Of a stretch of 52,994 nt of DNA, positions 139 through 52,994 are shown one piece after another (within the stretch, counting starts at the first letter, position 1; every line of letters begins with the position of its first letter). Below the pieces are notes generated by a model, which worked only from the letters and a program-made list of their open reading frames with translations, was not told the DNA's origin and made no database searches. The stretch covers positions 1-52,994 of the IMG/VR virus record IMGVR_UViG_3300034104_003611. One strand, written 5' to 3'. This stretch comes from a virus. The position numbers and the translations under genes were made by a program.

Positions 139-891
139 ATGAGATCTACCCTGACGCCCGCCATGGCGAAGCGCATTGAGCTATGGCCTGTCAGCAAACT
201 CGTCGCCTACGACAAGAACCCCCGCACCCACAGCCGTGCGCAGGTCTCCCAGCTGGCGGCGTCCATCGTGGAGTTCGGGTTCATCAACCCGATCCTGGTG
301 GACAGCGATGCCGGGATGATTGCGGGGCACGGCCGGTTGGCCGCGGCCAAGGAGCTGGGCCTGACGGAGGTGCCGGTGGTGGTCTTGGACCACCTCTCGC
401 AGGCGCAGAAGCGGGCCTACGTCATCGCGGACAACAAGCTGGCGGAGCTGGCCGGTTGGGACATGGACCTGCTGGCCGGCGAGATGGCCGACCTGCGCGA
501 CTTTGACTTTGACCTGGAGCTGACCGGCTTCTCGGATGCGGAGCTGGGCGGCCTGCTGGACGACCTGGACACCAACGTCCCCACGCCGGTGTTCAACGCT
601 CCGGTGCCCACCATGCCGGCCGCGGCTGGCGCCTCGCCCATCCCTTCAGCTGACACCACGGCGGCCGTTCCTCCCGCCGCTCCCGCCAGCTACGGGGATG
701 AGGATGAGGATGAGGAGGATGACACGTTCACCCTCCCGCCAGCCGCGACCCGCGTGGTGCAGCTGTTCATGAGCCTGGACCAGCACACTGAGTGGGGGCG
801 GATGGTTGACCGCCTGAACAAGCACTACGGCACCAGCAATCAGACCGACTGCGTGTTCGCGGCGCTGAAGGATGTGCTGGAGGGCCTGTGA
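139..891 (+). CDS. ParB-like N-terminal domain protein (ParB/Srx superfamily)
   Basis: This is a 250-aa protein whose residues ~10-110 form a ParB/sulfiredoxin-like domain, with the NPRTHS motif, an AGHGRLAAAKELG segment and the ADNKLAEL ending common in phage ParB-like DNA-binding/nuclease proteins. A Pro/Ala linker and an acidic run (DEDEDEEDD) lead to a C-terminal helical piece of ~55 aa that resembles nothing I know. An in-frame ATG at 163 is an equally good start and would drop eight residues; neither has a clear ribosome site. Its stop overlaps the GTG of the dioxygenase gene (GTGA). Phage ParB-like proteins are often found beside DNA methyltransferases and base-modification enzymes. 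A role in directing or marking modification is inferred, not shown. Confidence 0.8.
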   Translation: MRSTLTPAMAKRIELWPVSKLVAYDKNPRTHSRAQVSQLAASIVEFGFINPILVDSDAGMIAGHGRLAAAKELGLTEVPVVVLDHLSQAQKRAYVIADNKLAELAGWDMDLLAGEMADLRDFDFDLELTGFSDAELGGLLDDLDTNVPTPVFNAPVPTMPAAAGASPIPSADTTAAVPPAAPASYGDEDEDEEDDTFTLPPAATRVVQLFMSLDQHTEWGRMVDRLNKHYGTSNQTDCVFAALKDVLEGL

Positions 892-1793
892 AGATCCTGA
901 CCGCTCCTGTTGAGCTCCCCGATGAGGAGGTGGACCACCTGGCTGGTCACTTCCTGACCCCGGAGCACTACGACCTGCTGGTGGAGGGCGAGAGCTGCCG
1001 GGTGAACAAGCCTGACGGCTCCCCCCTCCTGGTCTACGTCCGCAACGCCATCCCAACGGAGCTGGGCGCCGCGGCCTACGGGATCCTGACGGACACCATC
1101 GACTACGGCGACCAGGGGAGCCGCAACCGCGGCATCGCCGGTGGGTATGACGAGAACGGCAACCTGGCGGTCTACCGGCCCACGCTGAAGGGCACCCGGA
1201 GCAACACCCGCGTGTCAGCCAATCCGGTGCGCAGCGCGATCATCGGCTACTTCGACCGGTACACCCGGATGCCGTTCTGCCGGCTGTGCAACTACACACG
1301 GGACAACCCGGAGCAGTGGGCGGCGCTCCAGCCCTACATCCGGCACGTGGACCGGGTGTTCGCGGAGCACCTACCGGAGCAGTACGCCAGGCAGCGGGAC
1401 ATTGCGGACCGCACCAGCCAGGACTTCGTGATCAAGGACACCGCCTTCACCACCATCACGGTGAATGAGAGCTGGCGGACCGCCACGCACAAGGATGCCG
1501 GGGACTTCCGCGATGGCTTCGGCGTGATGGCGTGCCTCACGTCCGGATCATTCCAGGGCGGCCACCTGGTCATGCCGAAGTACCGGGTGGGCGTGGCGCC
1601 TACGTCCTGTGACGTGCTGCTGTTTGACGTTCACCAGTGGCACGGCAACACCGCGATGGTGGGCAACCCCAAGCGGTTCCGCCGGCTCACGCAGGTGTTC
1701 TACTACCGCGAGAAGATGATCCACTGCGGCACCGCGGTGGAGGAGCTGGACCGGGCCAAGAACCGCAAGCCTGGTGACCCGCTGTGGGATTGA
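888..1793 (+). CDS. TET/JBP-family 2-oxoglutarate/Fe(II) DNA base dioxygenase
   Basis: Protein of 301 aa. The C-terminal half has the double-stranded beta-helix signature of the TET/JBP family: the iron-binding HKD (H201, D203) in a THKDAGD context, a GFGVMACLTSG strand, GGHLVMPKYRV, DVLLFDVHQWHGN with the distal histidine (H252), and an Arg-rich RFRRLTQVFYY segment that would hold the 2-oxoglutarate-binding arginine (about R266). Family members oxidise the 5-methyl group of thymine (JBP) or 5-methylcytosine (TET) in DNA. The start is GTG, overlapping the ParB gene by 4 bp; the end overlaps the next gene by 10 bp, so expression is coupled. No cytosine-5 methyltransferase or hydroxymethylase is recognisable in the window, which favours thymine or host-made 5-methylcytosine as substrate. 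That substrate assignment is inference. Confidence 0.82.
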   Translation: MKILTAPVELPDEEVDHLAGHFLTPEHYDLLVEGESCRVNKPDGSPLLVYVRNAIPTELGAAAYGILTDTIDYGDQGSRNRGIAGGYDENGNLAVYRPTLKGTRSNTRVSANPVRSAIIGYFDRYTRMPFCRLCNYTRDNPEQWAALQPYIRHVDRVFAEHLPEQYARQRDIADRTSQDFVIKDTAFTTITVNESWRTATHKDAGDFRDGFGVMACLTSGSFQGGHLVMPKYRVGVAPTSCDVLLFDVHQWHGNTAMVGNPKRFRRLTQVFYYREKMIHCGTAVEELDRAKNRKPGDPLWD

Positions 1794-2878
1794 CCGAGCA
1801 GCTATCGGCGTTGCGACCGGGCCTGGACTTCCGGCTGCCGGAGCTCCGCAGGGGAGTGTTCCACCAGTTCTACCAATTCCACCTGAAGTACCGGGCGCAC
1901 CCGGGTGCCGTCTACTACGTGCTCCCCTTCCTGGCGGAGCAGCAGGGCTGGACGGCAGAGGAGGCGCTGTGGTTCGCCTTCCTCAATGGCAACACCCAGC
2001 ACCCCGTAACCAGCTGGATCCTCCACCGAAGGTTCCCGGGCCTGGATGCGGCGGAGCCGATGCTGGAGTGGTACCGGGAGAACTACGCCCGGTTGTCCTT
2101 TGACACGGACCGCCGGCACCACAAGAAGATGCTGCCGCAAGCGGTGGAGGGCTACCGCAAGCTGCTGCGCGGCCGCTCCCAGGCGGAGCTGTGGGGCGAG
2201 GCTGCGCAACGTGGCTTCCGGGGCATCTGGGAGGTGGCGACCGCCATCCCGTCCTTTGGCCGGCTGTCAGCGTTCAGCTTCAGCGAGTACCTGCGCATCA
2301 GCGGCGTGGCGTTCGACTGCGACACGCTGTTCCTGGATGACCGCTCCGGCTCCAAGTCACACCGCAACGGCCTGTGCAAGGTGCTGGGGCGTGACGACCT
2401 GGACTGGCACTCCAGCAACCCGGGCTTTGACGGGACCTACTCCCGCGGCACGCTGAACTGGCTGGAGGTGGAGGGCGCAAGGATCCTGGAGGAGGCCCGG
2501 GAGCTGGCTGCCGGCACCGACTACGAGCGCGACGTGAGCTACTTCACGCTGGAGTCGGCGCTGTGCACCTACAAGTCCTGGCACCGGGTGAACCGGCGCT
2601 ACCCCAACGTCTACAACGACATGTTCCATGACCGGATTCGGGCCACTCAGGCCCGCTGGCCCGGGGAGGATTTGGGCGTGTTCTGGGATGCGCGGCGCCG
2701 CTACCTCCCGGATTACCTGCGGCTGGAGGACAACCCGCACGACCCCGGCTGCGTCCCGCTCAAGCAGAACCATTACCGGCTGACCGGCCAAGTAATCATG
2801 ATGGACCGCGACTACCCCGAGTTCCGCAACGACTTCAACGATGCGGTGCGTGACCGGGTCTTCCCCCGCTGGAGGTAG
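1784..2878 (+). CDS. Alpha-glutamyl/putrescinyl-thymine pyrophosphorylase-like amino-acid:DNA transferase
   Basis: A 364-aa, mainly helical protein. The N-terminal third (YVLPFLAEQQGW, EEALWFAFLNG, HPVTSWILHRRFPGL, LSFDTDRRHHKK) follows the pattern of the helical module found in 5-hmdU DNA kinases and aGPT pyrophosphorylases of hypermodifying phages. These enzymes, related to HhH DNA glycosylases, replace the pyrophosphate on an activated 5-hydroxymethyl base with an amine or amino acid. The centre (FSFSEYLRISG, DCDTLFLDDRSGSKSHRNG) and the C-terminus (GCVPLKQNHYRLTG) are also typical of the group. It starts at GTG 1784, inside the end of the dioxygenase gene; a TTG at 1790 is an alternative. 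Position between a base oxidase and a PLP enzyme plus kinase strongly supports the call. Which amine it uses cannot be told. Confidence 0.72.
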   Translation: MGLTEQLSALRPGLDFRLPELRRGVFHQFYQFHLKYRAHPGAVYYVLPFLAEQQGWTAEEALWFAFLNGNTQHPVTSWILHRRFPGLDAAEPMLEWYRENYARLSFDTDRRHHKKMLPQAVEGYRKLLRGRSQAELWGEAAQRGFRGIWEVATAIPSFGRLSAFSFSEYLRISGVAFDCDTLFLDDRSGSKSHRNGLCKVLGRDDLDWHSSNPGFDGTYSRGTLNWLEVEGARILEEARELAAGTDYERDVSYFTLESALCTYKSWHRVNRRYPNVYNDMFHDRIRATQARWPGEDLGVFWDARRRYLPDYLRLEDNPHDPGCVPLKQNHYRLTGQVIMMDRDYPEFRNDFNDAVRDRVFPRWR

Positions 2879-2882
2879 ACCC

Positions 2883-3929
2883 ATGCGCACCATCTTCCCG
2901 GTTCAGTCCCTCGCCCGCTCCCAGGTGCGGTGGGAGGAGTACCTGAACAACCTCACGCCCATCACCCGCGTGAACGGCCGCGCATACAAGCGCGAGGATT
3001 TCTTCGCCCCGCTGGGCTACGGCGGCATCAACGGCTCCAAGCTCCGCCAGCTGGTCTACCTGGTGGACCGCTACCGGCGGCAAGGCGGCCGTGCCGGCCT
3101 GATCACTGGGGCCTCCGTGCTCAGCCCGCAGATCAGCATGGCCGCGCTGGTGGCTGCGCACTATGAGCTGCCGGCGCTGATGGTGCTGGGCGGCAGCAAG
3201 CCCGAAACGTCCATCAAGCACGAGAACGTCGCCATCGCTGCTCGAGCCGGCGCCACCTTCAGCTACGTGCCGGTGGGCTTCAACCCAACGCTCCAGCGGT
3301 CCGTGGGCAAGCTGGCCCAGGAGCCGCAGCTCAAGGACTATTTCCGCCTCCACTACGGCATCACCACCCCGGAAGCGGCCGCGGCCTGGGATGTGGCGGA
3401 GTTCCATGCGGTGGGCGCCCCACAGGCCCGGAACATCCCGGACGACATTGAGCACCTGATCATGCCGGCTGGCTCGTGCAACTCCTGCACGTCCGTCCTG
3501 CTGGGAATCGCCACGCACCGGCCCAAGGCGCTCCGCAAGGTGACGCTGCTGGGGATCGGTCCCACCCGGCTCCGGTGGATTGAGCAGCGGATGGAGAGCA
3601 TCTACCAGGCGTCCGGCGTGGACGTGATGGGCCTGTTCCGCCCCCGCTACCACCAGCACCCGGAGCTGGAGCCGGCGCACCGCGGTGATGCGCCCTACGA
3701 GCTGGAGCACTACGACCTCCACTCCACCGGCTACGTGAAGTACGCCGACAAGAAGCCGTTCAACCTGGATGGGATTGATTTCCACCCGACCTACGAGGGC
3801 AAGTGCCTCACCTACATGGCGGAGCACCGGGACACGTTCTCGGAGTGGTGGGAGGGCGACGGCAAGACCCTGTTCTGGATCGTCGGCTCCAAGCCCACCG
3901 CCGGCGCCATGACCCGCCACCTTCAGTGA
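2883..3929 (+). CDS. PLP-dependent enzyme, fold type II (ACC deaminase/tryptophan synthase beta-like)
   Basis: A 348-aa protein. The predicted Schiff-base lysine is K53 in INGSKLRQLVYLV, matching the GNKxRKL pattern of the ACC deaminase/D-cysteine desulfhydrase group. A Gly/Ser/Cys-rich phosphate-binding loop (PAGSCNSCT, residues 195-203) follows the Rossmann-like middle, and SKPTAG lies near the C-terminus. The start at 2883 is chosen because a perfect GGAGG lies at 2871-2875; an upstream in-frame ATG at 2841 would overlap the previous gene. In phages with hypermodified thymines such enzymes remodel (for example decarboxylate) the amino acid attached to the base. A free amino-acid substrate is the alternative role. 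Confidence 0.78.
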   Translation: MRTIFPVQSLARSQVRWEEYLNNLTPITRVNGRAYKREDFFAPLGYGGINGSKLRQLVYLVDRYRRQGGRAGLITGASVLSPQISMAALVAAHYELPALMVLGGSKPETSIKHENVAIAARAGATFSYVPVGFNPTLQRSVGKLAQEPQLKDYFRLHYGITTPEAAAAWDVAEFHAVGAPQARNIPDDIEHLIMPAGSCNSCTSVLLGIATHRPKALRKVTLLGIGPTRLRWIEQRMESIYQASGVDVMGLFRPRYHQHPELEPAHRGDAPYELEHYDLHSTGYVKYADKKPFNLDGIDFHPTYEGKCLTYMAEHRDTFSEWWEGDGKTLFWIVGSKPTAGAMTRHLQ

Positions 3930-3930
3930 G

Positions 3931-4464
3931 ATGGAGCTGCTGTACCTGATTGGCCCGCCGGGAGCGGGCAAGACCACGCTGCTGGAGAACGCATTGGCGG
4001 GCCGTGAGCGGATTGAGCGGGACAAGCCGCTGGCGCATGAGGAGCTCCCGGAGCTGAATGCCGCCATCCTTGGCCGCCGCCGGCCGCCATTCGGCGGAAC
4101 CGACACGCTCCCCATGAACATCGCCCGCACGGCCGAGAGCTGGATCCGCTCCCGTCCGTTCCAGCTGGTGATTGGTGAGGGTGACCGGCTGGCCTACCCC
4201 GCGTTCTTCACCGCTGCGGTGGAGGCCGGCTACCAGCTCCGGCTGATCTACCTGGGCCTCCCGTCCAAGACTGCTGCGGAGCGGCGTGCTGCCCGGGCGC
4301 ACCAGCACGGCACCGGGCTTCAGAATCCACAGTGGGTAACGGGCCGGGTGACCAAGGCGCAACGCATCGCGCAGGAGTGGGGAGCGGTGATGATCTACGC
4401 CTCGCAGTCGCCGGAAGCCATGACCCGTGAACTGCTGGACGCCGTACCGGCGCTGCGTGCATGA
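3931..4464 (+). CDS. P-loop kinase, probable DNA base (5-hydroxymethylpyrimidine) kinase
   Basis: Small P-loop NTPase of 177 aa with Walker A GPPGAGKTT (K14) at the extreme N-terminus and a likely lid region rich in Arg (ERRAARAHQHG). It starts one base after the PLP gene's stop and overlaps the small terminase gene by ATGA. In ViI- and M6-like phages, P-loop kinases phosphorylate 5-hydroxymethyl bases in DNA, the activation step needed before an aGPT-type transferase can act. The operon context suggests that role here. By sequence alone it could be another nucleoside or nucleotide kinase. Confidence 0.68.
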   Translation: MELLYLIGPPGAGKTTLLENALAGRERIERDKPLAHEELPELNAAILGRRRPPFGGTDTLPMNIARTAESWIRSRPFQLVIGEGDRLAYPAFFTAAVEAGYQLRLIYLGLPSKTAAERRAARAHQHGTGLQNPQWVTGRVTKAQRIAQEWGAVMIYASQSPEAMTRELLDAVPALRA

Positions 4465-5138
4465 GTGAACCCCTCAGCCTGCGCGGCTTTGCCGAATCCC
4501 TGGACCCGCCGGTGTCGCACACCGCGGTGCGCAAGGCGATTGAGGCCGGCCACATCCCGCCAGAGGCGCTGATCTACGACGACAAGGGCCACCGCAAGAT
4601 CGCGGACCCGGAGCTGGCCGCACGGTCGTGGAAAAAGAGCGTGCTGCCCTACGACCGCGGCCGCGGCAAGAAGCTGGGCCCGAAGCCGGATGAAGCGCAG
4701 CCACCGGAGCGGTTTGACTCCGCCGAGGAGCGTGCGCTGAGCCGGGAGCTCCTGGCGGAGGAGCGCGAGGAGCTGCCCGAGGAGCCCGAGGAGGTGGAGC
4801 AACGGGCGGCCGCCAGCGTCCCATCCACGCAGGATGCGGTGCCGCCCTACGCCCGCTCTCGCGCCATCCGGGAGGCATTCGCAGCTCAGATGGCCAAGCT
4901 GGAGTATCAGGAGCGTGCTGGGCAGCTGGTCTCCGCCAATGAGGTGAAGATCAAGTGGTTCGGTGAAGCCCGCCGGATCCGTGATGCACTGCTGAACGTC
5001 CCCGCACGCATCACCGACCAGCTGGCCGGATTGGTGGGCGAGGTCTCACCCGAGAAGCGGCACGCAATCCTGCTGCTGCTCCAACAGGAGCTCAATGTCG
5101 TATTGGAGGAACTGAGCGATGGTGCTGGCGAACGCTGA
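4461..5138 (+). CDS. Terminase small subunit (Nu1-like)
   Basis: A 225-aa protein. The N-terminal ~60 residues look like a winged helix-turn-helix (SLRGFAESL, HTAVRKAIEAGHIP) for binding the packaging site. A very acidic, Glu-rich central linker follows, and the C-terminal helical region (residues ~130-220, RIRDALLNVPARITDQLAG through HAILLLLQQELNVVLEELS) is typical of gpNu1-like subunits that contact the large terminase. It is translationally coupled to the kinase gene (ATGA) and overlaps the large subunit gene by 20 bp. Confidence 0.85.
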   Translation: MSEPLSLRGFAESLDPPVSHTAVRKAIEAGHIPPEALIYDDKGHRKIADPELAARSWKKSVLPYDRGRGKKLGPKPDEAQPPERFDSAEERALSRELLAEEREELPEEPEEVEQRAAASVPSTQDAVPPYARSRAIREAFAAQMAKLEYQERAGQLVSANEVKIKWFGEARRIRDALLNVPARITDQLAGLVGEVSPEKRHAILLLLQQELNVVLEELSDGAGER

Positions 5139-6990
5139 CCGTGATCTGGTCCCCAGCTTTCGCGCTGGGCTACGCCCCGACCCCATCTTGACCGTGAGCG
5201 AGTGGGCGGATGAGCACAGGATGCTCTCCCAGCGGGCATCGGCGGAGCCGGGCAAGTGGCGCACGGAGCGCACGCCGTTCCTGCGCGAGATCATGGACTG
5301 CCTCAGCACCACCTCCCCCGTTCAGCGGGTGGTGTTCATGGCGGGTGCGCAGGTCGGCAAGACGGAGTGCGGCAACAACTGGCTGGGTTACATCATTGAC
5401 GCCACGCCGGGACCGTCGTTGTGCGTGATGCCGACGGTGGACATCGCCAAGCGGTTCTCCAAGCAACGCCTCAACCCGCTGATTGAGGAGTGTCCGCGGC
5501 TCCGGGAGCGGGTGCGGCCGCCGCGTGAACGGGACAGCGGCAACAGCCTCTTCAGCAAGGAGTTCCCCGGTGGGATCTTGATGATCGGCGGGGCCAACTC
5601 CGGTGCGGGCCTCCGCTCCATGCCCATCAAGAACCTGTTCTGTGATGAGGTGGACGCCTACCCGGTGGACCTGGACGGTGAAGGTGACCCGGTGAGCCTG
5701 GCGGAACGCCGCACCACCACCTTCAGCCGGCGCAAGGTGTTCCTGTGTTCCACCCCAACCATCAAGGACTTCAGCCGGATTGAGGCGGAATACCTGGCCA
5801 GCGATCAGCGGCGGTACTTCGTCCCGTGCCCGGACTGCGGCCACATGCAGTGGCTCCAGTTCAGCAACATCCGCTGGCACGACGACGACCCCAAGACCGC
5901 GGCCTACTGCTGCGAGGAATGCGGCGTGCTCATCCCCGAGCGCCACAAGACGGAGATGCTGGCCAAGGGTGAATGGCGGGCTACCGCTCCGTCAGACGGC
6001 ACCACCGCCGGCTTCCACCTCAGCTCCCTCTACTCCCCCCTGGGCTGGAAGAGCTGGGCGGACATTGTGGCGGAGTTCATGAAGGCCAAGTCCGACGCGC
6101 CGATGCTCAAGACCTGGATCAACACCGTCTTGGGCGAGACCTTTGAGGACAACTACGCCAACAAGGTGGGCGCGTCCGCGCTGCTGGAGCGGGTGGAGCT
6201 GTACGAGCCACGGGTGGTGCCGGATGGCGGCCTGGCGCTCACTGTGGGCGTGGACGTTCAGGACAACCGCTTGGCCGTGTCCGTCTGGGCATGGGGCCGC
6301 GAGGAGGAGGGCTGGCTGGTTGATCACCAGGAGATCTACGGCGACCCCGGGCGGCCGGAGCTGTGGCGGCAGCTGGATGAGATCATCCTGGAACCATTCC
6401 CGCACGCCAGCGGCAGCACCCTGCTGCCGGATGTGGTCTGCATCGACTCCGGCGGTCACTTCACCCATGAGGTCTACCAGTACGCCCGGGAGCGGCGCAG
6501 CCAAGGCGTCATCCCCATCAAAGGCGCCAACACCCGCAACAAGCCGGTGATTGGCAAGCCCAGCAAGGTGGACGTGAATGCCCGCGGCCGGGTGTTGAAG
6601 GGTGGAGTGGAGCTCTACACCGTGGGCACGGACACCGCGAAGGTGACGCTGTTCGGCCGGCTGAAGCACAACGAGCCCGGCGCCGGCTACCTCCACTTCC
6701 ACAACGCCTGCACGGAGGAGTATTTCGCGCAGCTGACCTCTGAGAAGCAGCAGGTGCGGTTCGTGCGCGGCTTCGCCATCCGGGAGTTCGTCAAGAAGCC
6801 GAGCGAGCGGAACGAGGCACTGGACACGCTGGTCTACGCCTATGCCGGATTGAATCGCATGTACCAGCTAAGAGATCGCAGAACTATCTGGGATCAGCTG
6901 GAAAAACGCATAAAAGCGCCAGTAGAGAAGCGGCGGCCGTCATCGCTAAGATCAGGAGGAGCTCAGCGCAGCTTCGTCCGCAACTGGTGA
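5119..6990 (+). CDS. Terminase large subunit (GpA family)
   Basis: A 623-aa packaging ATPase-nuclease of the lambda gpA type. Visible features are the N-terminal EWADEHRML/SAEPGKWRTERTPF adenine-binding region, Walker A GAQVGKTE (76-83), Walker B LFCDEVDAY (about D176-E177), coupling motif CSTPT, a CPDCG...CCEECG zinc motif around residues 235-270, and the RNase H-like nuclease with acidic residues in TVGVDVQDN, VCIDSGG and EALDTLVYA. The full family length is present. The last ~100 bp are visibly less GC-rich than the rest. It would cut at the terminal 13-bp site and fill proheads. Confidence 0.97.
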   Translation: MVLANADRDLVPSFRAGLRPDPILTVSEWADEHRMLSQRASAEPGKWRTERTPFLREIMDCLSTTSPVQRVVFMAGAQVGKTECGNNWLGYIIDATPGPSLCVMPTVDIAKRFSKQRLNPLIEECPRLRERVRPPRERDSGNSLFSKEFPGGILMIGGANSGAGLRSMPIKNLFCDEVDAYPVDLDGEGDPVSLAERRTTTFSRRKVFLCSTPTIKDFSRIEAEYLASDQRRYFVPCPDCGHMQWLQFSNIRWHDDDPKTAAYCCEECGVLIPERHKTEMLAKGEWRATAPSDGTTAGFHLSSLYSPLGWKSWADIVAEFMKAKSDAPMLKTWINTVLGETFEDNYANKVGASALLERVELYEPRVVPDGGLALTVGVDVQDNRLAVSVWAWGREEEGWLVDHQEIYGDPGRPELWRQLDEIILEPFPHASGSTLLPDVVCIDSGGHFTHEVYQYARERRSQGVIPIKGANTRNKPVIGKPSKVDVNARGRVLKGGVELYTVGTDTAKVTLFGRLKHNEPGAGYLHFHNACTEEYFAQLTSEKQQVRFVRGFAIREFVKKPSERNEALDTLVYAYAGLNRMYQLRDRRTIWDQLEKRIKAPVEKRRPSSLRSGGAQRSFVRNW

Positions 6991-7578: not shown

Positions 7579-9083
7579 TGGGCCTCCGCACTCGGTTGAT
7601 GCAAGCCTTCGGCTTCGGGCCGGCGAAGGAACCGCGCAAGCCCCGCCGGCGCATGTACCAAGGCGCCCGGATCACCCGGCTGACGAGTGATTGGTTCACG
7701 GCGCAAACCTCCGCCGACGCCGAGATCCGCACCAGCATCCGCCTGCTGCGTGACCGCTCCCGCCAGCTGGTCCGGGACAACCCCTACGCACGCCAGGCCA
7801 AGCGCACCACCCAGATCAACGTGGTGGGCCACGGCATCAAGATGCAGGCGCAGGTGCCGATGCTGCGCGGCAAGAAGCTGGATCAGCGGCTCAATGGCGT
7901 GATTGAAACGTCCTGGGAGCGGTGGTGCCGCTCAGATTCCTGCGACGTGGCCGGCGTCAACAGCTTCAACTCCTTTGAAAACCTGATTGCCGGTGCTCTG
8001 CCCGAGTCCGGCGAGATCATCTTCAGGATCGTCCGGCGCAAGTTCGGCCGCAGCAAGGTCCCCATCGCCCTGGAGGTGATTGAGAGCGACCTGCTGGACG
8101 AGGAATACGCCGGCCCAACCTCCGGCAAGGGCCGTGAGTGGCGCATGGGCGTGGAGATTGATGAATGGGGCCGTCCGCTCCGCTATGCCTTCCGCACCCG
8201 TCACCCCGGTGACTACTGGTTCCAAGGCGCTGACCAGGAGAACGTCCGGCACGAGTTCCTCCCTGCCGCGGACGTGATCCACCTGTTCCTTCGTGAGCGC
8301 CCCGGGCAAAACCGCGGTGTGCCCTGGTTCGCGTCGGTGATGGATGACGCGCACCAGCTCCAGGGCTACGAGCAGGCTGCCGTGGTCCGTGCCCGGGCCG
8401 CCAGCTCCCTGATGGGCTTCATCACCACCCCTGAAGGTGAGCTCCAGGCGGATGACGTGGAGGATGGTGAGCGCATCCAGGAGTTTGAGCCTGGCGTGTT
8501 CCGCTACCTGGACCCGGGCCAGCAAATCACCATCCCTAACCTCTCGGCTCCGGACAGCCAGTACGAAATGTTCATCCGCGCCAAGGCCCGCCGGTTCGCC
8601 GCGGGCTTCGGCTGCTCCTACGAGACCCTCAGCCGCGACTTCAGCGAAACCAACTACTCCAGCTCCCGGCTGAGCCTGCTGGAGGACCGTGATCACTGGC
8701 GCGTGATCCAGGGCTACCTGATTGAGAACTTCCACCAGCGGGTGTTTGAGGCGTGGCTGGATGCTGCGGTGCTCTCCGGCGCCCTGGAGCTCCCCGACTA
8801 CGAGCTCCGTCCCGAGCGGTACGACCGTCCCCGCTGGCAGGCCCGCGGCTGGAGCTGGGTGGACCCGCTCAAGGAGGTCCAAGCCTTCCGGGAGGCGGAG
8901 GCGGCCGGCTACCTCACCAAGTCACAGATCGTCGCGCAGCTTGGCGCGGACCTGGACGACAACCTCCAGCAGCTGGCGCAAGAGCAACAGCTGGCCCTGG
9001 ACCTCGGCCTCATGCTGGATGCGGACAAGAAGCCCGCACCGCCGGCTCCCGCTCCCGCCCGCACGGCTGAACCGGAGGCCTGA
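7578..9083 (+). CDS. Portal protein (lambda gpB family)
   Basis: A 501-aa lambda-family portal. Typical segments are SADAEIRTSIRLLRDRSRQLVRDNPYA near the N-terminus (broken here only by length), INVVGHGIKMQAQ, SGEIIFRIVRRKF, ALEVIESDLLDEEY, DVIHLFLRERPGQNRGVPWF, and FAAGFGCSYETLSRDFSET, the conserved crown/stem region. The length is close to lambda gpB (533 aa). It forms the dodecameric DNA gate and is coupled by one-base overlaps to the genes on both sides. Confidence 0.95.
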   Translation: MGLRTRLMQAFGFGPAKEPRKPRRRMYQGARITRLTSDWFTAQTSADAEIRTSIRLLRDRSRQLVRDNPYARQAKRTTQINVVGHGIKMQAQVPMLRGKKLDQRLNGVIETSWERWCRSDSCDVAGVNSFNSFENLIAGALPESGEIIFRIVRRKFGRSKVPIALEVIESDLLDEEYAGPTSGKGREWRMGVEIDEWGRPLRYAFRTRHPGDYWFQGADQENVRHEFLPAADVIHLFLRERPGQNRGVPWFASVMDDAHQLQGYEQAAVVRARAASSLMGFITTPEGELQADDVEDGERIQEFEPGVFRYLDPGQQITIPNLSAPDSQYEMFIRAKARRFAAGFGCSYETLSRDFSETNYSSSRLSLLEDRDHWRVIQGYLIENFHQRVFEAWLDAAVLSGALELPDYELRPERYDRPRWQARGWSWVDPLKEVQAFREAEAAGYLTKSQIVAQLGADLDDNLQQLAQEQQLALDLGLMLDADKKPAPPAPAPARTAEPEA

Positions 9084-11698
9084 TGAGCACTGAAATGAAC
9101 CTGATGCCCACCGAGGGGATGCGCGAGGAGGCGCTGCGCTACCGCGCATGGAAGGCGGAAGGCCGGAGCGGTGGAACTGAGGTCGCCGCACGCCGCGCCT
9201 CGCAGATCCTGTCTGGTGACGAGCTGAGCCCAGACACGGTGATCACCATGGCGGCCTGGTTCGCCCGGCACGAGAGCGACAAGAAGGCTGAAGGCTTCCG
9301 GCCTGGAGAGAAGGGCTACCCCTCCCCCGGCCGTGTCGCATGGGCCGCATGGGGTGGAGATCCCGGTCAAACATGGGCCACTGCGAAGGCTCAAACCATC
9401 AAAGATGCCGAAGATAGACTTATGACAACGTCCGATACGCCGACCGTGGAGAACGAAAAGGCCCCGGGCCAGCAGCTGAAGACTGGCGACTACGTGAGTT
9501 GGGGCAGCTCCGGCGGCACCGCTCGCGGCCGGATTGAGAAGATCATCCGTGAAGGCACCCTCAACGTGCCCGACTCCAGCTTTGAGATTGAGGCGACGGA
9601 GGATGACCCCGCCGCACTGATCCGCGTGTTCCAAGAAGGCGCAGACGGATGGGAGCCGAGCGACCGCCTGGTGGGCCACAAGCTATCCACCCTCTCCAAG
9701 ATTGAACCGCTCCGCGCTGCCGAGGAGGCCGAGGAGCCTGGCGAGGAAGATGACGAGGACGAGGAGCTAGAGGTGGAGGTGATCATCCCCTCCGGCCGCT
9801 CCCTGCCGCTCAAGGAGCTCCAGAAGCGCGGCAAAGGTGGCAACCTCATCCAGCGCCGCGAAGCCAGCGTCCAGATCCGCGCCGGTGAAGGCGATGAGAT
9901 GGAGTTCAGCTTCAGCTCTGAGCAGCCGGTGGAGCGGTACTTCGGCACCGAGATCCTCTCCCACGAGGCTGGTTCCGCCAACCTGGAGCGGCTCAACAAC
10001 GGCGCTCCCTTCCTGTGGAACCACGACCGCGATGCCGTGATCGGCGTGGTCCAGAGCGCACGGATGGGCGGTGACCGCCGTGGCTATTCCAAGGTCAAGT
10101 GGTCCCGCAACGCCATGGCGCAAGAGAAGCGCCAAGACGTGGCAGACGGCATCCTGCGCAACGTCTCCTTTGCCTACTCAATCGACGAAGTAGAGGAGCG
10201 TGGCGAGAACATCATCGTCACCAAATGGACTCCGCTGGAAGTGAGCCTGGTCTCAATTCCTGCGGATGCCAGCGTGGGCCTGGGACGTGCTCTCCAGGAA
10301 GGCGATAGCATGAGCGAAGAGGTCCCTGCTGTTCCGGCAGAGATCGCCACCGATTCCGACGCTCCCGTTGAGGGCGTGGCGGAAGAACCAGCGGCCACAG
10401 CCGCATCACCCACCCCTCAACCTAACTCTGAGGTTCCCATGGAGAACACCCCTGACGTGGAGGTGATCCGGTCGAAGGCCGCTGAGGCCGAGCGCACCCG
10501 TATCGCCCAGATTTCCGCCCTTGGCGAGAAGTTCGGCATGGCCGATCTGGCTCGTGAACTGATCGACGGCGGCAAAGATCTCACCGAAGCCCGCACTGCG
10601 ATCCTGGAGAAAATGGAAGCCCGTTCCAGCAAGTCCGCTGCTCACCGCATTGCTGAGCCCAAGGGTTCTGAAGTCGGCCTGAACGACAAGGAGACCCGCA
10701 GCTACAGCTTCCTGCGCGCCCTGAACTACCTCGCCAACCCCGGCGACAAGCAGGCCGCTGAAGCCGCTGCCTTTGAGCGTGAGGTGTCTGACGCCGCCGC
10801 CAAGGCATACGGCAAGCCCGCCAACGGCCTGATGGTGCCCAATGAGGTGCTCCGTCGTGACCTGACCGCCGGCACCAACTCCGCCGGTGGTTTCACCGTC
10901 GCCACCGACCTGCTGGCCGGCAGCTTCATTGAGCTGCTGCGCAACAAGCTGGCCCTGGCTCAGGTGGGCGCCACCATCCTCTCCGGCCTCCAGGGCAACA
11001 TTGCTATTCCCAAGCAGTCGGCAGCCTCAACTGCCTACTGGGTTGGTGAGGGCAACGCTCCCACCGAGAGCCAGCAGACCCTGGAGCAGGTCACCATGTC
11101 GCCCAAGACCGTGGGCGCCTACGTGGACTACTCCCGCCGCCTGCTGCTCCAGAGCTCCATCGACGTGGAGCAGATGGTGCGCAACGACCTCGCCCGCGTG
11201 ATCGCGCTCGAGATCGACCGTGCCGGCCTCTACGGCTCCGGTTCCTCCAACCAGCCCAAGGGCCTGATCAACCAGACCGGCATCAACACCGTCTCCCTGA
11301 CCAACTACGGCACCTTTGCTGAGCTGATCAGCATGGAGACCGAGGTGGCCAAGGACAACGCCGACGCCGGCTCGCTGTTCTACCTGATGAACGCTGCTGC
11401 CCGCGGCGCTCTGAAGTCCACTCCTAAGTCCGCCTCCGCCGTGGCCGCTGGCTTCGTGTACGAGGACGACGAGGTGAACGGCTACCCCGTGATCGTGTCC
11501 AACCAGCTCAGCCTGGATGACATCATCTTCGGTGCCTTTGATCAGATGATCATGGGCATGTGGAGCGGCCTGGACCTCACCCTGGACCCCTACGCTGGCG
11601 CCACCTCCGGCACCGTGCGCATCGTGGCTCTCCAGGACGTGGACTTCGCCATCAAGCAGGCTGGCGCCTTCTGCTACGGCACCGGCGCTCTCTCCTGA
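9083..11698 (+). CDS. Fused prohead protease and HK97-fold major capsid protein
   Basis: One 871-aa frame carries two head functions. Residues 1-~125 (GYPSPGRVAWAAWGGDPG) and a KOW/Tudor-like segment (TGDYVSWGSSGGTARGRIEKI, ~135-215, split here by length) precede an HK97/U35-type serine protease at ~250-405 with likely catalytic H314 (FLWNHD) and S362 (NVSFAYS). Residues ~450-580 are a charged helical, delta-domain-like region, followed by the capsid fold: FTVATDLLAGSFIELLRNK, AYWVGEGNAP, ALEIDRAGLYGSG, PKGLINQTGI, FGAFDQMIMGMW. An internal ATG at 10310 with a good ribosome site could make the capsid precursor separately. No separate scaffold or decoration gene is seen. Confidence 0.93.
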   Translation: MSTEMNLMPTEGMREEALRYRAWKAEGRSGGTEVAARRASQILSGDELSPDTVITMAAWFARHESDKKAEGFRPGEKGYPSPGRVAWAAWGGDPGQTWATAKAQTIKDAEDRLMTTSDTPTVENEKAPGQQLKTGDYVSWGSSGGTARGRIEKIIREGTLNVPDSSFEIEATEDDPAALIRVFQEGADGWEPSDRLVGHKLSTLSKIEPLRAAEEAEEPGEEDDEDEELEVEVIIPSGRSLPLKELQKRGKGGNLIQRREASVQIRAGEGDEMEFSFSSEQPVERYFGTEILSHEAGSANLERLNNGAPFLWNHDRDAVIGVVQSARMGGDRRGYSKVKWSRNAMAQEKRQDVADGILRNVSFAYSIDEVEERGENIIVTKWTPLEVSLVSIPADASVGLGRALQEGDSMSEEVPAVPAEIATDSDAPVEGVAEEPAATAASPTPQPNSEVPMENTPDVEVIRSKAAEAERTRIAQISALGEKFGMADLARELIDGGKDLTEARTAILEKMEARSSKSAAHRIAEPKGSEVGLNDKETRSYSFLRALNYLANPGDKQAAEAAAFEREVSDAAAKAYGKPANGLMVPNEVLRRDLTAGTNSAGGFTVATDLLAGSFIELLRNKLALAQVGATILSGLQGNIAIPKQSAASTAYWVGEGNAPTESQQTLEQVTMSPKTVGAYVDYSRRLLLQSSIDVEQMVRNDLARVIALEIDRAGLYGSGSSNQPKGLINQTGINTVSLTNYGTFAELISMETEVAKDNADAGSLFYLMNAAARGALKSTPKSASAVAAGFVYEDDEVNGYPVIVSNQLSLDDIIFGAFDQMIMGMWSGLDLTLDPYAGATSGTVRIVALQDVDFAIKQAGAFCYGTGALS
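10296..10312 (+). promoter_or_regulatory. Internal ribosome site and start for a separate capsid precursor
   Basis: AGGAAGG at 10296-10302 is followed by a 7-nt spacer and ATG (10310), in frame with the fused gene (residue 410), just after the protease domain ends. Initiation here would give a 462-aa protein beginning MSEEVPAVPAE, close to the usual size of an HK97-type capsid precursor with its delta domain. A second in-frame ATG at 10439 has a weaker TGAGG. Confidence 0.5.
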
Positions 11699-33894: not shown

Positions 33895-34173
33895 TTAGCG
33901 AGCCGTCCCGTTCAATCGGTCCGCTACCAGCTGGGCGTACCCGGCGATGTCATGCCAGGAATCGGCGTAGTCCGGGTCACCGTTGATGATCCGGCCGATC
34001 TTGTGGCAGATCATCTCCAGGGCCTCCTGCTGGTCGTCCGCCAGGGTGCGGTTGCGGATCTCCAGCTGGTCACGGATCACCCCTTTCAGCTCCTGCGTCA
34101 CCAGAGCGTGGCCGATGAAGGTGCCGTAGCGGCTCCCCCGCTCCTCCAGCGTGGCGGTGAGGTCAGTCGTCAT
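33895..34173 (-). CDS. DUF6378-like phage protein
   Basis: A 92-aa helical protein with ERGSRYGTFIGHA, EALEMICHKIGRIINGDPDY and SWHDIAGYAQLVADRL. This E-R-x-x-x-Y-G...K-x-x-R...G-x-x...D-x-W-x-D-x-A-G-Y pattern is widespread in phages and resembles the all-alpha NTP pyrophosphohydrolase-associated families. It starts at ATG 34171-34173 and overlaps the end of thyX by 11 bp, so a nucleotide-pool role is a reasonable guess. Confidence 0.75.
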   Translation of the reverse strand: MTTDLTATLEERGSRYGTFIGHALVTQELKGVIRDQLEIRNRTLADDQQEALEMICHKIGRIINGDPDYADSWHDIAGYAQLVADRLNGTAR

Positions 34174-34792
34174 GGAAGGCTGCCTCAGCGATGACGGGGA
34201 ACAACTCGGTGAAGATCTCGCGGCAGGCCTGGGCGACCTGACGGTGCTCCAGTTGGGTGCCCGGGTCCGTCCGCACATTGATGTAGTGAATCCAGGAGCG
34301 CAGGGTGCCGTGCATGTAGAGAGTGGTGGGCGTACACAGCGGCAGGATCCGGCGTGCGGTCTCCCGGGCCACTCCCTGGCGCAGGAGCTCCCAGTAGAGC
34401 TCATAGGCACCGTTGATCACCCGGTCCGCGGCGCTGTGCATGACCCGCTGCACCTCCAGGTCCAGGTCGTCATGGCTGGCCTGGCGGTTGGCCTCATCCT
34501 GCCTCCGGAAGGCCGGCACCTGTGCCCGGGAGCTCCGGGCATAGCGGGTGCTGAACTCCTGGAAGCTGAACGAGCGGTGGCGGAGGATCTGGGCCGCGAT
34601 GTCCCGCTCCGTTGAGATCTCCACGCACATGGAGGCCATCTCAAACGGGCTCCAGTGCTCATGGCGGATGAGGTAGCGGAGCAGCTTGGGAGCGGTCTCC
34701 TGGTTGTCCTGGTTGGTTGGGTTGGACACCCGGGCCATCTTGACGATCAACCGCTCAGCGTCTGGCGTGGCGTGGATCAACGTGACGCTCAC
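34163..34792 (-). CDS. thyX: Flavin-dependent thymidylate synthase
   Basis: A 209-aa ThyX. The signature motif is RHRSFSFQEFSTRY, with an upstream PFEMASMCVEIS and downstream RRILPLCTPTTLYMHGTLRS and HINVRTDPGTQLEHRQVA (C-terminal substrate-binding arginine region). It methylates dUMP to dTMP with methylene-THF, FAD and NADPH. GTG 34792 is preferred: it has GGGGAGG five bases upstream and overlaps the previous stop (GTGA); GTG 34798 would add two residues. It pairs with the phage dCTP deaminase and could raise the thymidine pool for the base-modification operon. Confidence 0.96.
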   Translation of the reverse strand: MSVTLIHATPDAERLIVKMARVSNPTNQDNQETAPKLLRYLIRHEHWSPFEMASMCVEISTERDIAAQILRHRSFSFQEFSTRYARSSRAQVPAFRRQDEANRQASHDDLDLEVQRVMHSAADRVINGAYELYWELLRQGVARETARRILPLCTPTTLYMHGTLRSWIHYINVRTDPGTQLEHRQVAQACREIFTELFPVIAEAAFHDD

Positions 34793-35076
34793 GCCCACCT
34801 CCCCAGGAGGTACTTGCGACAGACGGCGATGGCGGCTTTGGCCTGAGGCTCGGTCATCACGGATTGCGTCTCATCTATCCCGGTCATCACGTCCGCCAGC
34901 AGCTGCTGGTAGTCGGTGTCGCGGAAGTTGGCTGCCAGCTCCCGGGCGAACTCCTCCCACAAGCCGGTGTAGGTGCAGCGGAGCGGGTGACCGTAAGGCA
35001 GCTGGTCCCGACCGGAGTGCTGGTAGAGCGACTCCAGCATGTCAGCGCGTTGCTGATCCAGTTGGAATGACTTCAT
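34789..35076 (-). CDS. Hypothetical protein, coupled to thyX
   Basis: A 95-aa, mostly helical protein (QQRADMLESLYQHSG, LWEEFARELAANFRDTDYQQ, PQAKAAIAVCRKYLLGRW). The start MKSFQLDQQ is chosen at 35076 because the upstream frame runs through the neighbouring gene. GTGA overlap with thyX. No family recognised. Confidence 0.65.
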   Translation of the reverse strand: MKSFQLDQQRADMLESLYQHSGRDQLPYGHPLRCTYTGLWEEFARELAANFRDTDYQQLLADVMTGIDETQSVMTEPQAKAAIAVCRKYLLGRWA

Positions 35077-42615: not shown

Positions 42616-42797
42616 CAGCGCGATGCGCGGTACGACCGTTCTAAGGATTTCCGGGTGTCTTGGCTCACCGTCTTGCGGATAACCCACGCCACCGGCTCCT
42701 CGGCAGCGCGAACCAGGATCCCCTCCACCCGTGGCGAGCGGATCAACAGCTGGACCAGCAGGGCCTCATACCAGCGGAGGAACTGCCGTGGCTTCAC
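42615..42797 (-). CDS. Small basic hypothetical protein
   Basis: A 60-aa protein with a helical start (RQFLRWYEALLVQLLIRSPR) and a basic end (SQDTRKSLERSYRASR). Overlaps both neighbours. Unknown function. Confidence 0.55.
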   Translation of the reverse strand: MKPRQFLRWYEALLVQLLIRSPRVEGILVRAAEEPVAWVIRKTVSQDTRKSLERSYRASR

Positions 42798-43477
42798 AGC
42801 ACCACCTCCCGCCGCTCCGTCGGCGTGGTCCAGAAGTATTCATCCTCCCCACCCAGCCGTCCCCACTTGGGAGCGTGCTCCACGTTGAAGTAACGGGTGC
42901 TGACCTTGAAATCGGGCGTCAGGAGCTCCTCCGGCGTGAGTGAGCTGTCCACCATCCGGCAGCGGTTGTTGGGGTACGCACCGATCTGCCCGTTGGCCAG
43001 CACCACCACGTTGTGGGACTTGTGCTCATCCGGGACCTCAGCGAACTCCGCGTCGATCTCGTTGATGTGCGGGTGGTAGTTGTCGAGCGTGAACAGGTAG
43101 CTCCCGGGCATCACGCCATGGGAGCGGGTCCGGACCTCAAACGCCATGTTGGCGATCAAGGTCTTGTGGATCACGGTGATGCCGGTGTCGAAGCTGTTCC
43201 AGAACTGGAGGTCAGCCAGCGGCAGGTCCGGTGACGGTGGCGGCGGGCCGTCTGGGTAGTCGCTGTCCCATGCCAGGAAGGCACTGATGGGCAGCTTGTC
43301 GTAGAGGGCGCCGTACTGGGTGAGGTAGGTCTCAAAGTAGAGCGCACGGCCGGGGAGTGATTTGGCCGCCACCCAGTAGCCCGGTGTGTACTCACCGTGG
43401 CCGCGGCGGAGGTCATAGAGGTACTCCTTGCGCACCCAGACCTTCACGGGTGGGACATTGATCAGCAGCGTGCTCAT
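42794..43477 (-). CDS. Conserved phage hypothetical protein
   Basis: A 227-aa protein, the largest unknown in this block. Distinct segments are VPPVKVWVRKEYLYDLRRGH, ALYFETYLTQYGALYDKLPI, WNSFDTGITVIHKTLIANM, GSYLFTLDNYHP, VPDEHKSHNVVVLANGQIGA and YPNNRCRMVDSSLTPEELLT. I recall this as a family found across cyanophage and other phage genomes, without assigned function. It is well conserved in pattern, so likely under selection. Confidence 0.75.
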   Translation of the reverse strand: MSTLLINVPPVKVWVRKEYLYDLRRGHGEYTPGYWVAAKSLPGRALYFETYLTQYGALYDKLPISAFLAWDSDYPDGPPPPSPDLPLADLQFWNSFDTGITVIHKTLIANMAFEVRTRSHGVMPGSYLFTLDNYHPHINEIDAEFAEVPDEHKSHNVVVLANGQIGAYPNNRCRMVDSSLTPEELLTPDFKVSTRYFNVEHAPKWGRLGGEDEYFWTTPTERREVVL

Positions 43478-52981: not shown

Positions 52982-52994
52982 GGTGTTTCGCAGG
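52982..52994. repeat. Right copy of 13-bp terminal direct repeat
   Basis: GGTGTTTCGCAGG, identical to bases 1-13. Filled-in cohesive ends of a cos phage would give exactly this arrangement. The repeat is preceded by GCCTGC (52975-52980), the left half of the inverted repeat described at the left end. Confidence 0.6.

Follow-up and report, generated by a model that had tools for sequence, protein, structure and literature searches.

Described systems and the locus under study

The DNA of the Ackermannviridae Salmonella phage ViI carries 5-(2-aminoethoxy)methyl-2′-deoxyuridine (5-NeOmdU) at about 43% of T; both ViI and Pseudomonas phage M6 incorporate 5-hydroxymethyldeoxyuridine (5hmdU), which a DNA kinase phosphorylates within the DNA before transferases change it further (PMC6449724). 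A five-gene 'thymidine hypermodification system' was described in 2025 for Rhodococcus phage Tonitrus, almost as we describe the locus reported here (PMC11955845); Tonitrus is known by annotation, and we liken its gene set to ours by the published description. Our locus lies in the window, by which we mean the whole IMG/VR virus record IMGVR_UViG_3300034104_003611 of 52,994 bases, from a phage for which metagenomic sequence is the only source. Positions 139–4464 of its plus strand encode a ParB-like protein, a TET/JBP dioxygenase, an amino acid:DNA transferase (ADDT), a pyridoxal phosphate (PLP) enzyme and a P-loop kinase. We propose, with a probability of about 0.7, that these genes form a post-replicative DNA hypermodification operon that is started by TET and yields an aminoalkyl thymine. 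Iyer, Zhang, Burroughs and Aravind (NAR 2013) reportedly predicted TET/JBP-made hydroxymethyl pyrimidines as starting points for further enzymes; theirs was a prediction, and the exclusion and exchange test given below is our own.

With ViI and the Ackermannviridae the window shares a related ADDT (about 27% identity), a PLP enzyme and a DNA kinase, and the same kinase-transferase-PLP logic would apply. ViI differs in having a thymidylate synthase (TS)-type hydroxymethylase that acts on deoxyuridine monophosphate (dUMP) at the nucleotide level, a PF18748 kinase, its own polymerase and scattered genes, whereas the window has TET, a PF18751 kinase and a single operon. In M6, the 5-(2-aminoethyl)-2′-deoxyuridine (5-NedU) phage, the genes are clustered as in the window and include a PF18724 ADDT (gp51), a PLP enzyme (gp52) and a kinase; the M6 set differs by its TS-type hydroxymethylase (gp58), a radical-SAM-like protein (gp53) and a PF18748 kinase with a helical partner, and its ADDT and PLP enzyme are remotely similar to those of the window.

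Closer in layout is the cluster B mycobacteriophage Zemanar, in which ParB, TET, ADDT and a PF18751 kinase stand in the same order before the terminase genes. In Zemanar, unlike in the window, the kinase gene follows ADDT without a PLP gene in between, the TET is of the HxDxxN type and a family-A DNA polymerase is encoded. Another cluster B mycobacteriophage, Acadian, carries ParB, TET, glycosyltransferase, PIG-L deacetylase and kinase genes in the same neighbourhood; its gp2–gp5 (L086, 813–3588) are the TET, a TET-associated glycosyltransferase, the deacetylase and a PF18751-family kinase, which we read as a different decoration of the same TET starting point. The Acadian TET is annotated as queuine tRNA-ribosyltransferase. 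Phage systems acting on 5-methylcytosine (5mC) likewise use a TET/JBP oxygenase for hypermodification, but they carry a C5-methyltransferase and glycosyltransferases; the window has neither, and ADDT, PLP enzyme and kinase instead.

TET-started ADDT systems have therefore already been predicted and annotated, and the window is a new, complete member of a chemically unproven kind. To this we add that TET and dUMP hydroxymethylase exclude and exchange with each other, that the kinase family changes and that the tailoring slot is variable.

The five genes and their active sites

Window proteins were assigned to families by Pfam and PHROGs profile searches. All five open reading frames that the initial annotation had reported as overlapping or tightly spaced exist at 139–4464 (+), head to tail, with neighbours overlapping by 4–10 nt or separated by 1–4 nt, and the identities it gave them were borne out by Pfam, PHROGs, fold models and invariant residues. 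The first gene (139–891, +) encodes a ParB-like protein with a GxGR motif (PF02195, ParB_N, 3.4e-8; PHROG 620, 1e-55; PHROG 498, ParB-DNA methyltransferase, 7e-56), a possible DNA-loading or targeting adaptor. The second (888–1793, +) encodes the TET/JBP 2-oxoglutarate/Fe(II) dioxygenase (PF12851, 3.4e-22), whose AlphaFold model (pLDDT 91) matched TET2 with a Z score of 22.4, CMD1 with 19.9 and NgTet1 with 19.2. An AlkB-type oxygenase was rejected as an identity, the AlkB-type score being about 14 vs. 22 for TET2. The iron ligands H201-x-D203 and H252 and the 2-oxoglutarate-binding R266 were invariant across 76 sequences.

Placement of the 1784–2878 and 2883–3929 products outside the aGPT-Pplase and PLP families had been named beforehand as an outcome that would count against the operon. 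Instead, the first of them (+ strand) is an ADDT (aGPT-Pplase2) by both PF18724 (1.3e-16; 61.5 bits, curated cut-off 26.2) and PHROG 3271 (3e-81), of the same family as M6 gp51 (1e-46). It is 49% identical to Zemanar gp3 and 27% to Ackermannviridae proteins, the latter being nearer than M6. Searches of the PDB with the single TET or ADDT sequence gave no match, and profiles were required.

The 2883–3929 (+) product is a fold-type-II PLP enzyme by its fold and its Schiff-base lysine and not a PF00291 member by score: its match to PALP (PF00291; 3e-5, 24 bits) falls below the Pfam cut-off of 35 and is the weakest Pfam assignment of the five. The assignment is secured by PHROG 3650 (1e-95), by a profile match to 1-aminocyclopropane-1-carboxylate (ACC) deaminase (4e-9), in which K53 aligns with the G-x-K-L-R lysine region, and by an AlphaFold model (pLDDT 95.8) that matched D-cysteine desulfhydrase (3e-12) and also resembles ACC deaminase. 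The protein, a proposed decarboxylase or other tailoring enzyme, is 44% identical to ViI Vi01_182 across most of its length. Its M6 relative was missed by a single-sequence search, and the profile matched M6 gp52 weakly. The reading frame of the gene is open from 2841, and an AGGAGG-like site precedes the ATG at 2883.

The last gene (3931–4464, +) encodes a P-loop kinase (Ploopntkinase3; PF18751, 7e-31), the proposed 5-hydroxymethyl-pyrimidine DNA kinase. The kinases of the window, Zemanar and Acadian are PF18751 members, whereas those of ViI and M6 belong to PF18748, the ViI/M6 5hmdU kinase family, which had no match in the window genome. PHROG 800, to which the kinase would correspond, is named as terminase small subunit; this identity was rejected, as terS is the next gene and Zemanar gp4 is likewise PF18751. 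Zemanar gp4 itself (L082, 2875–3465), annotated as terminase small subunit, is thus a PF18751 P-loop kinase, and M6 gp54, which bears the same annotation, is a PF18748 protein.

Residues were checked in family alignments of 47–98 relatives at positions conserved in at least 95% of sequences, and the window proteins keep the consensus residue at every one of them. These include H201, D203, H252 and R266 of TET, 31 positions of the ADDT, K53 of the PLP enzyme and, in the intact Walker A motif of the kinase, G8, G13 and K14. When compared with the relative L002 (about 83–96% protein identity), the five genes gave dN/dS values of 0.13–0.21 and are under purifying selection. When the start of the window was compared with phages by megablast, the sole match was a 61-bp stretch in the PLP gene, and a scan of bacterial genomes with the window ADDT protein found no relative.

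Exchange of TET and dUMP hydroxymethylase

If TET makes the hydroxymethyl base of the ADDT pathway, a TET and a dUMP hydroxymethylase would not be needed together. Among 50 virus records with an ADDT, TET was present in 35 and a PF00303 hydroxymethylase in 7, and both in none (Fisher p=6e-5). The exclusion persisted after clustering of the ADDTs at 90% (p=7e-4) and 70% identity (p=3e-4). In these records the TS-type proteins are homologous to M6 gp58 and have Asn at the dUMP-recognition position wherever the alignment shows it. C5-methyltransferases were rare, being found in 2/35 TET records vs. 2/15 records without TET.

The two types of enzyme are also interspersed on a tree of 55 ADDT sequences, a quick tree with SH-aLRT support only. 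By parsimony the TET/TS state changed at least 8 times, and well-supported branches alone force at least 4–5 changes; the TET record L018, for example, is sister to the TS record L060. The tips SFP10 and TSW001 were labelled TS, as we take them to be TS-type phages from what their group is known for. Exclusion and swapping, together with the dUMP-type Asn and the scarcity of C5-methyltransferases, point to a shared intermediate, 5-hydroxymethyluracil (5hmU) in DNA, and hence to thymine as the probable TET substrate. The simplest reading of these sequence comparisons is that hydroxylation of thymine in DNA by TET takes the place of the dUMP hydroxymethylase known from ViI and M6. The mutual exclusion and the repeated swapping lend support to the earlier suggestion that TET stands in place of a nucleotide-level hydroxymethylase, with thymine as the presumed substrate. 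In the ADDT records L009, L025, L028 and L074 neither TET nor TS-type hydroxymethylase was detected.

Occurrence of the gene set in other viruses

Searches with the window ADDT yielded 80 viral loci and with the window TET 31. The set ParB-TET-(tailoring gene)-ADDT-kinase was found widely, in dozens of unrelated viral contigs, and is therefore not a chance arrangement. In the roughly dereplicated set of TET loci with sufficient flanking sequence, ADDT was nearby in 40/49, the kinase in 39/49 and ParB just upstream in 26/40, counts in which the search seed favours ADDT; in the TET-seeded set alone, ADDT and kinase were each found in 13/19. Single-frame fusions of TET+ADDT (L005), PLP+ADDT (L018, L063, L075 and L077) and ADDT+kinase (L050, L054 and L072) tie the steps of the pathway together.

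The tailoring slot varies among these loci and may hold a PLP enzyme, a glutamine amidotransferase with an acetyltransferase, a beta-hydroxylase-like protein, an acetyltransferase or an amidoligase. In L092 (6819–7881) and similar loci the slot between TET and ADDT is occupied by the glutamine amidotransferase/acetyltransferase pair in place of the PLP gene, and in L095 (2689–3936) an aspartyl/asparaginyl beta-hydroxylase-like protein is encoded between ADDT and kinase. The TS-type record L063 has a frame of 1096 amino acids (7853–11140) in which an unassigned N-terminal part of about 290 amino acids is joined to PLP and ADDT domains.

Proposed pathway and its alternatives

From this gene content we infer a pathway, including the order of its steps. 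The host polymerase would replicate the genome from ordinary dTTP, after which the TET/JBP enzyme would act on the DNA and hydroxylate some thymines at their 5-methyl group to 5hmU. The hydroxymethyl group would then be phosphorylated by the P-loop kinase, and the ADDT would exchange the phosphate for an amino acid, probably serine, as has reportedly been inferred for ViI. Finally, the PLP enzyme would tailor the attached amino acid, most likely by decarboxylation; the result would be an aminoalkyl thymine, for instance the 5-(2-aminoethoxy)methyl base known from ViI. Loading or targeting of the enzymes onto phage DNA ahead of packaging is the probable task of the ParB-like protein, and the modified base would serve to block restriction enzymes; in M6 and ViI, resistance was seen at sites that contain TG or TC.

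If correct, this is a phage route to hypermodified T for which the host polymerase and the ordinary dNTP pool suffice, so that a temperate phage could bring it along in five genes. The operon would be a natural alternative to the way in which well-studied phages build armoured bases. It is also fairly probable that an entire branch of TET/JBP enzymes in phages hydroxylates thymine, not 5mC, in replicated DNA, and that this step has replaced the dUMP hydroxymethylase repeatedly and interchangeably, with a distinct kinase family, PF18751, and a variable tailoring slot. The exchange makes the question of the TET substrate directly testable, and the TET-ADDT set offers a large natural stock of enzymes that could place aminoalkyl and further groups on the thymines of finished DNA.

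As to the product, the ViI-like aminoethoxymethyl type is suggested by the roughly 44% identity of the PLP enzyme to that of ViI, a phage which contains 5-NeOmdU (PMC6449724). The initial annotation had held that the final base may be new; we judge a ViI-like base likelier than a wholly new one, and regard another base as a tentative alternative with an appreciable chance. Here the PLP enzyme would perform elimination, racemisation or substitution, not decarboxylation, and the base would be one not yet described. The nearest solved folds, D-cysteine desulfhydrase and ACC deaminase, carry out elimination and ring opening, and the variability of the tailoring slot among related operons would agree with this; it is the kinship with the ViI enzyme that argues for decarboxylation.

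Several observations weigh against the TET-started thymine operon and the exchange behind it. When ADDTs were clustered at 60% identity the exclusion was lost (p=1), with too few groups, and many or most of the compared records are fragments. Polymerases of family A and III-alpha were found in 0/18 large TET records vs. 6/7 TS records; once family B was counted too, a polymerase was present in 4/18 vs. 6/7 (p=0.007), and dependence on the host polymerase was dropped as a rule for TET records. The window kinase lies outside the family of characterised 5hmdU kinases. The only TET/JBP enzymes proven to hydroxylate thymine are, to our knowledge, the kinetoplastid JBPs. The TET structures that were matched all have 5mC or oxidised 5mC as substrate, with N6-methyladenine as a further one for CcTet, and the window TET motif is HxDxxD, the same pattern as in NgTet1. 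Phage TETs typically act on 5-methyldeoxycytidine (5mdC) according to a review (PMC11404850), and the characterised ones do so beside C5-methyltransferases and glycosyltransferases, as Burke et al. 2021 is cited in that review and in PMC12730594.

The properties of these TETs would suit a hypermodified cytosine, in which a methyltransferase of the host or of a superinfecting element makes 5mC, and TET oxidises it to 5-hydroxymethylcytosine, which kinase, ADDT and PLP enzyme then turn into an aminoalkyl cytosine; PF00145 is indeed present in a few TET records (L021, L046 and L024). The residue three positions after the Asp of HxD was tried as a clue to T vs. 5mC and rejected, as known 5mC enzymes show either residue; it is Asp in 54/76 and Asn in 22/76 TETs, with the same partner genes in both classes. 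We consider a cytosine product unlikely. The complete window genome, searched for PF00145, holds no C5-cytosine methyltransferase, and on the ADDT tree TET exchanges with the dUMP-type, not a dCMP-type, hydroxymethylase. Moreover, the PLP enzyme is of the thymidine-modifying ViI type, and dependence on host 5mC would confine the modification to few host sites. We therefore prefer thymine as the base that the operon would modify. That the genes are relics or act elsewhere, for instance on host DNA or RNA, leaving virion DNA unmodified, is highly improbable: adjacency to terS and terL is by itself no proof of action on phage DNA, but the catalytic residues are intact, selection is purifying, the whole set and its fusions recur in many unrelated phages, and the proteins are homologous to proven DNA-base enzymes.

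Genome ends and other gene content

The window begins and ends with an exact 13-bp repeat, GGTGTTTCGCAGG, at 1–13 and 52982–52994. In the relatives L002 and L003 one copy of the 13-mer links the counterparts of the right and left ends of the window, which makes the record a unit-length genome whose end is cos-like, in agreement with its lambda-type terminase. As the genome is complete, gene absences count. A search for PF00303 found no TS-type dUMP hydroxymethylase in it, TET being present instead, and searches of the window for DNA polymerases of families A, B and III-alpha were negative. The terminase small subunit gene (4461–5138, +; PHROG 57, 1e-16) overlaps the end of the kinase gene by 4 nt and is followed by that of the lambda gpA-type large subunit (5119–6990, +; PF05876, 8e-99; PF20454, 1e-96).

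The stretch that separates the genome end from the first gene holds three GTTTCCA/TGGAAAC copies, at 76, 104 and 118 (76–127). The motif has no other copies in the genome and its arrangement is kept in L002; by their position the copies may correspond to terminase-binding repeats of the lambda cosB type.

A ThyX flavin-dependent thymidylate synthase (34163–34798, −; PF02511, 4.5e-48) supplies ordinary dTMP and is not a ThyA-type hydroxymethylase. The protein encoded at 42794–43477 (−) matched PHROG 3704, 'ferredoxin', at 6.5e-94 and had no Pfam match. The window also encodes an integrase, a VapE-like primase/helicase, a RecA-like Sak4 protein, an exonuclease and SSB, and is a complete lambda-type temperate phage genome.

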